A stretch of 46,472 nt of DNA. Origin: an uncultured Chloroflexota bacterium (GTDB taxonomy: Bacteria > Chloroflexota > UBA11872 > UBA12225). The stretch covers positions 1 to 46,472 of the forward strand of contig CADCTC010000175.1 in assembly GCA_902805635.1 (NCBI GenBank), in the 5' to 3' direction. Positions 3,339-8,351 of the stretch are shown one piece after another (position 1 is the first letter of the stretch; the number at the start of each line of letters is the position of its first letter). The notes beneath the pieces are model-generated. The model was not told the DNA's origin. It was given only the letters and a program-made list of their open reading frames with translations, and searched no databases. Made by a program: the position numbers and the translations under genes.

Positions 3339-5552
3339 CTACCGCAGCCAGGAGCGCTGCTGGAGCAACTGGTCGCCGAGGAGGCCGAGCTGGACCTCGT
3401 AGGGGGTGCCGGCGTGCTCGGGGTGGTATTCGAAGCGCGCGCGCTGGAAGTACTGCACGGTGTAGCCGCCCTCCACCAGCTCCTCCGAGATGGGGTAGCC
3501 GAACGCATCGAGGCCGCCGCGGTTGCGCCAGAACGATAGAAAACCGTGGTGCAGGCCGTGCGCTGTCTCTGGAAAGTAGTGGTGGTCGGCGGATGGGTCG
3601 AACGGCGTGGTGGTGGGGAACGGCCGGCGGGACGTGGTCACCGTATCGCCCAGCAGCGCCGCCTGCACCTCGTACAGCGTGCCCGCCTTGTCTACGTGAA
3701 ACTCCAGCCGGGCGCGCTGGAAGAACTGCACCGTGCGTCCGTCCTCCAGCAGCTCCTCCGTGCGTGGATAGCCGAACACGTCCAGGCCGCCCGCGCGCTG
3801 GAAGAACGCCAGAAACGCCCCGCCCACGTTATGTCCCGTCTCCGCGAAGTAGGCGTTGCTCGGCCCGCTGGGCCGGGCCGGCGCCGGCTGCGTCAGCTCC
3901 AGCCGGTACACCGGCGTCGGGACCGGGGTTGCCGTCGGAGGAACTGGCGTGGACGCCGGCCGGGGTGTGCCCTGCGGGGCGGCCCCGGTGCCAGGCATCG
4001 CCGTGGGGCTCCGCACGGCGCCCGGCGTGCCGGGAGTACCAGGGGTGCCCTGCCCGCTCGGCGTGCTCTGCCCGCCCGGTAGGGCAGTGCGCGTCGGCGG
4101 TGGCGGGCCGGCCGTGGGTGTGGCGGGCACGCCGCCTTGCGAGAGTACCAGCGCTTCCGTTGGCGCCCACTTCAGGTCGAAGTTGGTGCTCAGCAGCTGC
4201 GCCACACCTTCCGGCCTGCCGCGGTTGAAACGCACCATCAGCGTGTCCGACCGCAGCGTCTTCACCCCGGCGGTGCCGGTGACGACCACTTCCAAGAGTC
4301 GTCCCGACGGCGAACGCCGGGTCAAGTCCAGGCTAAGCAGCTTGCCGATCTCGGTCGCCTCGTGGCCGTTAAGCAGCACCTCCAGCTGCGCCACCGTCAG
4401 CGCGCCGGTGCTCCACGTCGAGCGGGGTGAATCGGCGTCGTAGGGACGTCCCGCGGCGTCAACGTCGCGGATGCCACGCAAGTAGGGCAGCGGCTGGCCG
4501 CCCGGCCAGACCACCTCGTTATTCTCGGTCCAGCCGGCGCAGGTGGAGAAGAAGAACCCCTGCACGGTCTGTGCGCCGTGCAGGATGGCCTGGCCAGCGG
4601 TCGCGTCGATCGCCGCGTTGCTGCCGGGGTGCTCGGCGTTGGCGCCGCGGTAGACCTGGTACGCGGTGGTGTCGTCCACGTCGTAGCGCTCCGCCGAGCG
4701 GTTCCGCGCTTGCCACACGGCGTACGAGCGCGCCGCCAGCGTCTGCGCCTTGACCGCCTCCGCGGGCCAGGAAGCCGGCACCTCCGCGGGCACCACCCCA
4801 CGCAGGTAGTCCTCCAGGCTGAGCCGGTTTACCGTCTCCAGCCCACCTCCGCGCAGCGCCAGCACCAGCTCGCCGCGGTACGCGTCGTAGTATTCCCCCT
4901 GGCGTCCCGGCACCGCCGCGGCCGGCTTATACCCCACCACAAAGCGGGTGTTGCCGTCCAGCGGCCGCAGCACTATCGGCGCTGCCACAGTGCCCGCGCC
5001 AGCAATCGCACCGTCGGGCGCCTTCACTTGGTAGCGCCACAGGTTGCCCTCCGCGGAGAGCTCCAGTGTCGCGCCCGCCGGCGCCTGGATTGCCGGGGTG
5101 CCCGCCGCGGCCAGCTGCCACGCCCCGCCCTTTCCGGTGACCTTGCCGGTCTCGCTGGCGTCGAGCTGCAATCCGGAATGGACCAGCACGCGGATGGTCG
5201 TCTCCGGCGCCACGGCCGTCTGGACGGTGGTGCCCGCGTAATACGCGGCCACGATCTGCTCCGCGCTCTGCCCCGCTAGGGCCCTCCCACGCGCGCCCCA
5301 CTGGCACAGACCCACGCCGTGGCCCCAGCCCTGGCCCTCAAAGACCAGCGCCTGGTTAGGGTCAGGGAACTGGTAGACGGCCGCTGCCGCCGGTGCTGCC
5401 TGCTCAAACGGCGACGAGAGCAATGCGGCCGCCGCCGGCGGCGCGGCCAGCGCGGGGGCCGCGCCCACGGCCAGGATGAGCCCAATGAGCGGCCCGGCGG
5501 CCGCGCCTCGCAGCGTGTTGACAAACAGGGGGATCAGAGGACCATGCTCCAT
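3339..5552 (-). CDS. SpoIID/LytB-domain protein with two C-terminal repeats
   Basis: An exported protein of 737 residues. A hydrophobic N-terminal segment (about residues 15-40, LIGLILAVGAAPALA) is a likely signal peptide. A SpoIID domain spans about residues 60-440, with the hallmark LEDYLRGVVPAEVPASWPAE near 241 and TCAGWTENNEVVW near 340. SpoIID proteins are lytic transglycosylases acting on denuded peptidoglycan; the same domain occurs in non-sporulating bacteria. A Pro/Thr/Gly-rich linker (about 470-555) leads to two repeats of about 80 residues (about 562-640 and 653-735), each built on TGH/TAH-F-GGLD-FGYP-TEEL-G-TVQ-FQRAR. These resemble LGFP-type wall-binding repeats and match those of the divergent neighbour. 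No sporulation genes are seen nearby, so a role in vegetative wall remodelling is inferred. Confidence 0.85.
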   Translation of the reverse strand: MEHGPLIPLFVNTLRGAAAGPLIGLILAVGAAPALAAPPAAAALLSSPFEQAAPAAAAVYQFPDPNQALVFEGQGWGHGVGLCQWGARGRALAGQSAEQIVAAYYAGTTVQTAVAPETTIRVLVHSGLQLDASETGKVTGKGGAWQLAAAGTPAIQAPAGATLELSAEGNLWRYQVKAPDGAIAGAGTVAAPIVLRPLDGNTRFVVGYKPAAAVPGRQGEYYDAYRGELVLALRGGGLETVNRLSLEDYLRGVVPAEVPASWPAEAVKAQTLAARSYAVWQARNRSAERYDVDDTTAYQVYRGANAEHPGSNAAIDATAGQAILHGAQTVQGFFFSTCAGWTENNEVVWPGGQPLPYLRGIRDVDAAGRPYDADSPRSTWSTGALTVAQLEVLLNGHEATEIGKLLSLDLTRRSPSGRLLEVVVTGTAGVKTLRSDTLMVRFNRGRPEGVAQLLSTNFDLKWAPTEALVLSQGGVPATPTAGPPPPTRTALPGGQSTPSGQGTPGTPGTPGAVRSPTAMPGTGAAPQGTPRPASTPVPPTATPVPTPVYRLELTQPAPARPSGPSNAYFAETGHNVGGAFLAFFQRAGGLDVFGYPRTEELLEDGRTVQFFQRARLEFHVDKAGTLYEVQAALLGDTVTTSRRPFPTTTPFDPSADHHYFPETAHGLHHGFLSFWRNRGGLDAFGYPISEELVEGGYTVQYFQRARFEYHPEHAGTPYEVQLGLLGDQLLQQRSWLR

Positions 5553-5642
5553 GAACCGGCGTATGATGGTGCGGCCGCGCCGCGGCTCCTAGTTCAGTAA
5601 CGCGTGCCTCACCCCTGGGGTTTGGCCGTTCCAACACAAGTA

Positions 5643-8351
5643 ATGAGTTTTCGCATCGCCTGCATAGTCCGCATGGCCTGCTCTGTCTACTTTGCTCGCT
5701 TGGTCCGCGTGCTGGCGCTCGCCTGTCTTGTGGCGGCCGGCGTGCTGCCCCTCTCCGGCGCCCTCCTACGGCCGAGCGTGTCGGTGGCGCAGGCACAGGG
5801 CCTGCCGCAGGCGCTGCCGGCGAGGGCGGTGCGCGCGCCCGCTGTCCAGGCACGCTCCGCGTTCCTCCTGGACGTGGCTAGTGGCGCGGTGCTCTTCCAA
5901 AAGTTCCCGGACACGCGGCGGCCCATGGCCTCCACCACCAAGACGATGACCGGGCTGCTGGCCGTCGAGAGCGGCCGCTTGGACGAAGTGGCGACCGTGA
6001 GCCGTGCCGCCGCGAACGTGGGGGAAACCACCATGGGATTGGTGGAGGGGGAGCAGCTGCCGCTGCGTGAGCTGCTCTACGGTCTGATGATGAACTCCGG
6101 CAACGACGCGGGCATCGCCATCGCCGAGCATCTGGCCGGATCGGTGCGGGCGTTCACGGCGCAGATGAATGCGCGCGCCGCCGTGCTGGGATTGAGGAAC
6201 ACGCGCTTCGCCAACCCACATGGGTTGGACCACTGGATCTATGACTCGCCGGACCACTTCGCCTCGGCGCGCGACCTGGCGACACTCGGCGCCGCCGCGT
6301 TTGCCAACCCGGTGCTGGCGCAGGCGATGGGCACGGCGCAGCGCCTGGTGCCCGGCCCGCGTGGTGAGCCGCACCGCCTGCGCCACAGCGTCTCCGCGCT
6401 GTGGTGGTATCCCGGATCGCTTGGTGGCAAGACCGGCTGGACCGAAAAGGCCGGGCAGGTACGCATCCTGGGCGCCGAGCGCGCCGGCACGCGCCTGGTG
6501 GCGGTGGTGATGCACTCACCTGACCACGTCGTCGAAACGCGCGACCTGCTCGACTACGGCTTTGCCCTCAGCAAGCGCGTCGAAGCGCGCACCAGCGTGC
6601 CACTAGGGGCGCCGCTGGGCGCGGATGCGTCTGCCGTTCCCGCCACGCCCGCCATGCCCGATCCACGGCTGGCGCAGGCGTGGGCAGCGTACAAGCGCCT
6701 GGTGCTGACCGGCGAAGGGCGCGTGCGCCAGGGGCGCGATGGCGCGAGCGCCACCGCTGATGCACAGGCCGACGCGCTGCTGCACGCCGTTTGGCAGCGC
6801 GACCGGACCGCCTTCGACGCAGTGTGGGGCTGGACGCAGGTGGCACTCTCGCGGCAGCAGGCGCCGCCAGGCACGGTACGCCGAGACTTCCTGTTTGCCT
6901 CACGCTGGACGGCGGGAAACGTCACCGACTGGAGCAACTCGACGGCGGCCGACCAACGGCTGGCGGCGGCGCTGCTGCTGGCGTCCCGTCTGTGGGACGA
7001 CCCGAGCTACGCCGCCGCTGCCACGAAGATCCTCGCAGCGGTCATCGACCGCGCCGCCATCTCCTGGGACGTGGGTGGCGTGCCTGCCGTTGGCTGGAGC
7101 GTGCCGGCGGCGAACAGCGCGCTCAAGGAACTGGATCCGGCTACCACTTCCGGCGCGACGCTGACTCCCGCCTTTTACCGCATGTTTGCCGAGGCGGCGC
7201 GCGAGACGGCCTGGCTGTGGGCGCTGGAGGGGACCTACACCGCCGTGGAGCGCGCAACAGCCGCGAACGGCACGCTCGGACCCGGCGCCGGGCTGCTGCC
7301 CGGCTGGTTTTCGGTCTCACGTGAGAGCGGGAGAGTGGGGCAGCCGGTAGACCCCACCTGGCAGACCGCCGGCTTCACGCCCGAGTCGGCGGCGCTGGCT
7401 TGGCAGCTGGCGCTGGATGACCGCTGGCACGCCGGCCATGCCGGGCAACCCGGACAGAGTGTGCAGGGCGGGCCAACTGGATCGGGTGAGGGTCGCGCCC
7501 GCGGCTTGCTCGCATCGTCGGCCCGTTTTCTGGCGCGCGACCTGGCGCAGCGTGGCCGCATGGACGCGACCTACACGCGCGGTGGCACGCCAGGCGGCGC
7601 CGAAACGGAGCACTATGGCGCCCTGGCGGGCGTGGCGTTGGTGGAGCCGGAGGCCGAGGCGGCGCTGCGCGCCAGAATCGAGGCGCAGCTGACGTCGAAC
7701 GAGCCGGAGCGCGTGCTGGACGGGATCGGCGGGTTGTGGCTGCTGGCCGGTGGGCCGCCCAACTGGTGGCGTATCTGGAACCCGCCGCTGGACTTGCCGA
7801 CGACGCGCAACGACGGCGTGGTGCCGCCAGCGGACGGCTACCCCTGGCGCTACTTCACCGAGACTGGCCATACCGTGCATGGCGCGGCGCTGGAGCATTT
7901 CAACGCCACCGGCGGCTTGGCGGTCTACGGCCTGCCCCGGACCGAGGAGTTCGTCGAAGACGGCAAGACGGTGCAGTACTTCCAGCGCGGCCGGCTGGAG
8001 TTCGGGCCGAACCGCCAGAGGCTGTCGCTGGCGCCGCTGGGCGAGCGCGTGGCGCAGCAGCGCGGTGTCCTCTTACGTCCGGAAGCGCGTCGCGTGGCGC
8101 CTTTCGAAAGCGACGAGCAGCGCCTGTACATCCCGCAGACCGGCCATTCACTGGTGGCCGGGTTCAAGCGCTTCTACGAGCAGCACGGCGGCGCGGCCAT
8201 GCTCGGCCACCCGCTGACCGAAGAGTTGGTGGAGGAGGGCTTCACGATGCAGTACTTCGAGCGCGTGGTGCTCGAATACGTTCCCGGTAAGGCGGTTCAG
8301 CCCAGCCTGCTCGGAGATGACTTGCTGCGAGAGAAGGGCTGGCTCAAGTAA
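5643..8351 (+). CDS. D-Ala-D-Ala carboxypeptidase fused to a GH8-like domain and two repeats
   Basis: An exported multidomain wall enzyme of 902 residues. After an N-terminal hydrophobic segment comes a peptidase S11 (DacA/DacF-type) domain with all three penicillin-binding motifs: STTK near residue 97, SGN near 151 and KTG near 262 (GGKTGWTEKAGQ). Residues about 346-600 look like a glycoside hydrolase family 8 domain: WAAYKRLV, the GH8-signature-like STAADQRLAAALLLASRLW, FYRMFAEAA, GLLPGW and LALDDRW occur in the family's order. The expected acidic catalytic positions are altered (SEGQ is TADAQ; A-S-D-A-D is S-T-A-A-D), so catalysis is doubtful and the domain may only bind glycan. Two repeats follow (about 734-815 and 825-902), like those of the divergent SpoIID protein. 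The ATG at 5643 is chosen; GTG 5604 and ATG 5673 are alternatives. The 90-base spacer to the neighbour shows no clear promoter. Confidence 0.85.
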   Translation: MSFRIACIVRMACSVYFARLVRVLALACLVAAGVLPLSGALLRPSVSVAQAQGLPQALPARAVRAPAVQARSAFLLDVASGAVLFQKFPDTRRPMASTTKTMTGLLAVESGRLDEVATVSRAAANVGETTMGLVEGEQLPLRELLYGLMMNSGNDAGIAIAEHLAGSVRAFTAQMNARAAVLGLRNTRFANPHGLDHWIYDSPDHFASARDLATLGAAAFANPVLAQAMGTAQRLVPGPRGEPHRLRHSVSALWWYPGSLGGKTGWTEKAGQVRILGAERAGTRLVAVVMHSPDHVVETRDLLDYGFALSKRVEARTSVPLGAPLGADASAVPATPAMPDPRLAQAWAAYKRLVLTGEGRVRQGRDGASATADAQADALLHAVWQRDRTAFDAVWGWTQVALSRQQAPPGTVRRDFLFASRWTAGNVTDWSNSTAADQRLAAALLLASRLWDDPSYAAAATKILAAVIDRAAISWDVGGVPAVGWSVPAANSALKELDPATTSGATLTPAFYRMFAEAARETAWLWALEGTYTAVERATAANGTLGPGAGLLPGWFSVSRESGRVGQPVDPTWQTAGFTPESAALAWQLALDDRWHAGHAGQPGQSVQGGPTGSGEGRARGLLASSARFLARDLAQRGRMDATYTRGGTPGGAETEHYGALAGVALVEPEAEAALRARIEAQLTSNEPERVLDGIGGLWLLAGGPPNWWRIWNPPLDLPTTRNDGVVPPADGYPWRYFTETGHTVHGAALEHFNATGGLAVYGLPRTEEFVEDGKTVQYFQRGRLEFGPNRQRLSLAPLGERVAQQRGVLLRPEARRVAPFESDEQRLYIPQTGHSLVAGFKRFYEQHGGAAMLGHPLTEELVEEGFTMQYFERVVLEYVPGKAVQPSLLGDDLLREKGWLK

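Follow-up and report, generated by a model that had tools for sequence, protein, structure and literature searches.

A putative S11 D,D-carboxypeptidase of Chloroflexota carries a conserved GH8 domain that appears to have lost its glycosidase active site

The GH8 fold is that of cellulose, xylan and chitosan hydrolases. In a 46,472-nucleotide contig of an uncultured Chloroflexota bacterium (CADCTC010000175.1, assembly GCA_902805635.1; this whole stretch is referred to as the window), a domain resembling it lies in the middle of a predicted peptidase of family S11, which raises the question of whether it is a second enzyme, a non-catalytic part that binds or positions, or a remnant. A preliminary description of the gene had proposed an S11 peptidase joined to a degenerate GH8 domain, and this architecture was upheld by Pfam (S11 E 9.6e-47; GH8 E 3.8e-16). 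The features of the gene and of its neighbor are as follows.

5604..8351, + strand: gene of the S11/pseudo-GH8/repeat protein, 915 aa (ORF list and translation; frame open throughout)
5673..5798, + strand: signal-peptide-like N-terminus, residues 24–65, MACSVYFARLVRVLALACLVAAGVLPLSGALL...SVAQAQ (read directly from the sequence)
5826..6518, + strand: Peptidase S11 (D-Ala-D-Ala carboxypeptidase) domain, residues 75–305 (Pfam PF00768, PDB 3mfd, genome search, motifs)
6657..7829, + strand: degenerate GH8 domain, residues 352–742, with a GGPP..WR...PP..PT.RND.V.PP tail (Pfam PF01270, PDB GH8 profile, Foldseek, family alignment)
7842–8072 and 8118–8348, + strand: two C-terminal ETGH...GG...G.P.TEE...VQYF repeats (genome search, repeat profile A6)
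3339..5552, − strand: divergently transcribed SpoIID/LytB-domain protein with two C-terminal repeats like those above (Pfam SpoIID E 8.2e-27; TIGR02669 E 2.2e-56)
3342–3857, − strand: the two repeats of the SpoIID protein (genome search, repeat profile)

The start codon may be GTG 5604, with ATG 5643 and ATG 5673 as alternatives; the start at 5643 in the preliminary description is an in-frame ATG corresponding to residue 14 of the 915-aa ORF. Judging from the signal-peptide-like N-terminus, the protein is putatively secreted or exported. Homologous full-length frames were found at loci L011, L012 and L014–L016 of relatives, and two further copies, L013 and L017, are truncated at contig ends. 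Nothing was found when viral contigs were scanned, nor in a promoter scan.

The S11 domain scored 159.9 bits against a Pfam cut-off of 27.6, with all of its active-site motifs intact (STTK 110–113, SGN 165–167 and KTG 276–278), and SxxK, SGN and KTG were also present in the relatives covering these sites. Pfam matched S11 in seven of the eight family members, the exception, L017, being a fragment that lacks the S11 region, and phmmer matched solved S11 structures over residues 80–320, of which 3mfd was the best (E 6.7e-44). In a full-length AlphaFold2 model (mean pLDDT 60), the S11 domain and the repeats were good and the GH8 domain was not; S11 or beta-lactamase-fold structures accounted for essentially all of the 50 listed matches of a fold search with this model. 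We take the domain to be a D,D-carboxypeptidase whose activity is predicted from its motifs. It shares with DacA/PBP5 and B. subtilis DacB (3mfd) a complete S11 domain with SxxK, SxN and KTG and an export-signal-like N-terminus, whereas Pfam found no match for the PBP5 C-terminal beta-domain, in whose stead the protein has a barrel derived from GH8 and a pair of Chloroflexota repeats. Plain S11 proteins were also found in most genomes across the class, so that as a rule the fusion is an extra paralogue.

Homology of the middle domain to GH8 was established at several levels. The Pfam Glyco_hydro_8 match (59.5 bits, cut-off 24) covers residues 358–572, and an HMM search of the whole 6.1-Mb genome returned this domain as the sole GH8 there (E 7.5e-17). 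Seven of the eight family members matched the GH8 profile (best E 2.1e-25). GH8 endoglucanase structures were matched by phmmer with E values of 3e-9 to 2e-4, the GH8 glucanases covering residues 352–539; a family profile built from seven relatives matched GH8 glucanase among solved structures down to E 8.5e-22, and NCBIfam gave a weak BcsZ match in the middle part of the protein. The GH8-order motifs quoted in the preliminary description are all present, namely WAAYK (360–364), STAADQRLAAALLLASRLW (446–464), FYRMFAEAA (524–532), GLLPGW (563–568) and LALDDRW (602–608), and the Pfam, PDB and fold scores rule out a chance resemblance of motifs.

A domain-only AlphaFold2 model showed about 12 helices in order at low confidence (mean pLDDT 53, pTM 0.59; the alignment held eight sequences only). 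When this model was searched against the PDB with Foldseek, 41 chains had E≤0.001, all of them GH8 except two chains of CPF_2247, and the top match was E. coli BcsZ (3qxq, TM ~0.5). CPF_2247 belongs to GH126, whose resemblance to GH8 is known (PMC13363691). The (alpha/alpha)6 barrel that had been anticipated is thus supported for the middle domain by a low-confidence model, which is too rough for the shape of the cleft. Neither of the outcomes that would have spoken against the preliminary description, another fold or the lack of a significant GH8 match, was observed. Compared with BcsZ/CelA-type GH8 endoglucanases, the domain is homologous across the barrel and retains the core Trp and Ala positions, whereas its C-terminal part is divergent and ends in the clade-specific GGPP...RND.V.PP tail, which is strongly conserved in the family alignment.

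To locate the catalytic positions, we used a reference alignment of E. coli BcsZ (from NC_000913), ten intact Chloroflexota GH8s and the S11-linked copies. The roles of BcsZ residues E55, D116, D243 and R246 have been described (PMC8805304), and their counterparts in the window are listed below.

6759..6761, + strand: D386, at the general-acid position (BcsZ E55/CelA E95); the S11-linked copies have D, E, D, S, S, S, S here
6945..6947, + strand: A448, at the −1 subsite Asp (BcsZ D116/CelA D152); each of the seven S11-linked copies that cover it has A or G
7383..7385, + strand: E594, at the general-base position (BcsZ D243); the column reads E, A, T, L, L, L, A, with D only in the fragment L017
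7392..7394, + strand: A597, at the substrate-tethering Arg (BcsZ R246); A, E, D or M, never Arg, in the S11-linked family

The change that had been noticed at two acidic positions was therefore real, and its extent was greater than stated, since it involves E55 (D386), D116 (A448), D243 (E594) and R246 (A597). The combination of acid Glu, −1 Asp, base Asp and Arg246 that marks a functional glycosidase is not found in the S11-linked family, which differs in this respect from BcsZ/CelA, while ten Chloroflexota GH8s outside the S11-linked clade and genus g78 have E, D, D and R throughout. Among 31 columns that are near-invariant in canonical GH8, nearly all of the core Trp, Ala, Leu, Pro and Phe are retained in the S11-linked copies (A64, F73, W79, W98, D118, L125, A128, W132, P185, W198, P219 and W343 in the BcsZ alignment), and the columns lost are D116, P180, S181, Y182, D243, A244 and R246, with E55 left in one copy only. 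Because the core columns stay while the catalytic-site columns go, the losses cluster at the active site. In the S11-linked clade, new invariant residues surround the former site (W443, N445, Q451, R452 and Q601), and E530, D428 and D450 do not vary among the copies covering them. On these alignments, the S11-linked GH8 is a conserved pseudo-glycosidase module whose glycosidase active site is predicted to be gone. A Pfam match alone would enter the protein in annotations as a glucanase, which it very probably is not.

The degenerate domain is nevertheless being kept. The GH8 frame is open in all copies, none of which is shortened except at contig ends, and identity across genera is 38–65% in the family alignment. 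Over all pairs, dN/dS of the GH8 part was 0.11–0.29: 0.26–0.28 for the window versus L011/L012, 0.18 for L011/L012, 0.11–0.12 for L013 versus L014/L015, 0.19 for L015/L016, and 0.29 for L014/L015, a very close pair with few changes. In the three-genus comparison, GH8 (0.18–0.28) and S11 (0.24–0.28) were about equal, these ratios being rough because dS approaches or exceeds 1 in the wider, between-genus pairs. Within the other genus, the GH8 ratio (0.11–0.12) was higher than that of S11 (0.02–0.04), but still well below 1. These values indicate that the GH8 domain is under purifying selection.

In the genomes covered, the fusion was seen in a narrow group. Scans of frames with Pfam found S11 together with GH8 in relatives, with the fusion in 7/9 genomes of the window's family. 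The remaining 32 genomes of the class showed no such fusion; one of them gave a marginal GH8 match (G019, E 9.4e-4), which was not recovered with the family profile. In 400 Chloroflexota genomes, no fusion was seen outside the family among the stronger GH8 matches, the weakest few (E ~1e-4 to 8e-4) having been read in part. When about 85,000 species were scanned with two motifs, six loci of the family were returned, together with one fragment in a record labelled Oxalobacteraceae. This fragment (L017, RGFZ01000113.1, titled Oxalobacteraceae bacterium) carries the last part of an S11-linked GH8 protein together with its repeats, and is probably a mis-binned Chloroflexota contig. All S11-linked copies formed a single clade in the tree (support 100/99). 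The preliminary description knew of no standard account of S11 joined to GH8, and our search of open-access papers likewise found no such report.

The C-terminal repeats are not specific to this protein. Their Chloroflexota consensus, ETGH...GG...G.P.TEE...VQYFQRARLEY, occurs at 29 places in the genome (G000), and the carriers include Amidase_3, an M23 peptidase, another S11, SpoIID, a polysaccharide deacetylase and others. As amidases, the M23 peptidase, another S11, the polysaccharide deacetylase and others carry them, a wall- or surface-related role is likely. Pfam gave no match for the repeats, and the C-terminal module of the S11-GH8 protein is not an LGFP (PF08310) member by this measure; LGFP matches below threshold were obtained at three other places of the genome with related repeats (C154, C218 and C228), and the best PDB match of the repeat was the LGFP protein PS1 (E 0.067, non-significant). 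The repeat is probably a distant LGFP-like wall module.

A homologous SpoIID gene lies upstream of the S11-GH8 gene, divergently oriented as in the window, in each of the five relatives that could be tested, with only the end of the SpoIID gene on the contig piece compared for L014, and with one dehydrogenase-like gene between the two in L015 and L016. In other families of the same class, plain S11 genes without GH8 have a SpoIID gene no more than about 1.5 kb away (L073 and L079), so that the S11-SpoIID linkage may predate the GH8 fusion.

What would an emptied GH8 fold do on such a peptidase? It is probably a wall-binding or spacing part and not a second enzyme. The reading that we prefer, with modest confidence, is an exported S11 D,D-carboxypeptidase with a non-catalytic GH8 barrel that would bind or lean on glycan and position the peptidase. 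The pseudo-GH8 barrel stands between the catalytic domain and the repeats, in place of the small beta-domain of PBP5-type S11 enzymes, and would hold a glycan chain (a peptidoglycan strand or another envelope polysaccharide) without cutting it, which could put the S11 active site onto the stem pentapeptides. The S11 domain would then remove the terminal D-Ala of the stem peptides, the repeats would fasten the protein to the envelope, and the SpoIID-type partner with its similar repeats might cleave glycan nearby, the two perhaps acting jointly. A bolder version, in which the GH8 fold has been rebuilt as a reader of envelope glycan that guides the D,D-carboxypeptidase and forms, with the linked SpoIID, a wall-remodelling module of two genes whose sensor is a pseudo-glycosidase, is tentative, and we regard it as doubtful. 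Chitinase-like lectins are pseudo-glycosidases retained as lectin-like domains, and both they and the S11-linked domain keep a hydrolase fold after the catalytic acids are lost; the lectins, however, belong to a different fold family from GH8, and binding is known for them, whereas it is only proposed here. If our preferred reading is true, the emptied GH8 on a wall peptidase would show this fold taken over, without catalysis, for reading the wall or for positioning, in a phylum with a poorly understood envelope.

A serious rival, possible although we would not expect it to prove right, is that the pseudo-GH8 is a ligand-free rigid spacer or dimerization scaffold that determines how far the S11 domain stands above the wall or membrane, with the repeats as anchor. 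The PBP5 C-terminal domain is thought to set this distance, and the absence of a match to it in our protein fits such a role, as does a barrel core kept while the cleft was emptied; the repeats, common to many envelope enzymes of the genome, could alone bind the wall, and purifying selection fits a purely structural spacer equally well. Glycan binding is favored over the spacer because the new invariant polar and aromatic residues in the cleft region (W443, N445, Q451, R452 and Q601) exceed what a bare spacer needs, which is suggestive only.

That the domain is still an active glycosidase with relocated acid and base, making a two-headed peptidase/glycosidase, is improbable. The window copy does have acidic residues at both positions (D386 and E594), and, taken alone, resembles an acid swap (E to D, D to E); the invariant E530, D428 and D450 could also be cited for it. 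The relatives, however, have S at the acid and A, T or L at the base, and no S11-linked copy, that of the window among them, has the −1 Asp or Arg246, whereas, to our knowledge, GH8 enzymes with an altered base (GH8 subfamilies) retain the acid Glu and the −1 Asp. Asp/Glu conservation in relatives, the check suggested earlier, thus bears out a degenerate domain, and the moved acid is made unlikely by the family-wide lack of a kept acidic residue at the acid and base columns. Still less credible is a decaying relic of a chance GH8 fusion drifting toward loss: the catalytic residues do vary even inside the S11-linked clade, but decay is made unlikely by the open frames, by the identity of 38–65% kept across genera and by the low dN/dS, which in the three genera is close to that of S11.

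The nearest GH8 relatives found in the phylum are PMT-like glycosyltransferase-GH8 fusions and lipoprotein-like single GH8s, which make up the stronger matches outside the family; their active site is mostly intact, their partner domain, where present, is another one, and the tree sets them apart from the S11-linked clade. In several Chloroflexota, a GH8 that looks intact is joined to a PMT-like membrane glycosyltransferase (L010, 4–2592, in G030; L022 in G311; L025 and L039 in G052), an arrangement that resembles a synthase joined to its own trimming hydrolase. In three such fusions from one genus (L026, L028 and L029; G374, G243 and G124), the acid Glu is replaced by Arg, D118 by Asn and R246 by Leu, and this lineage apparently represents a second, independent loss of the GH8 active site.
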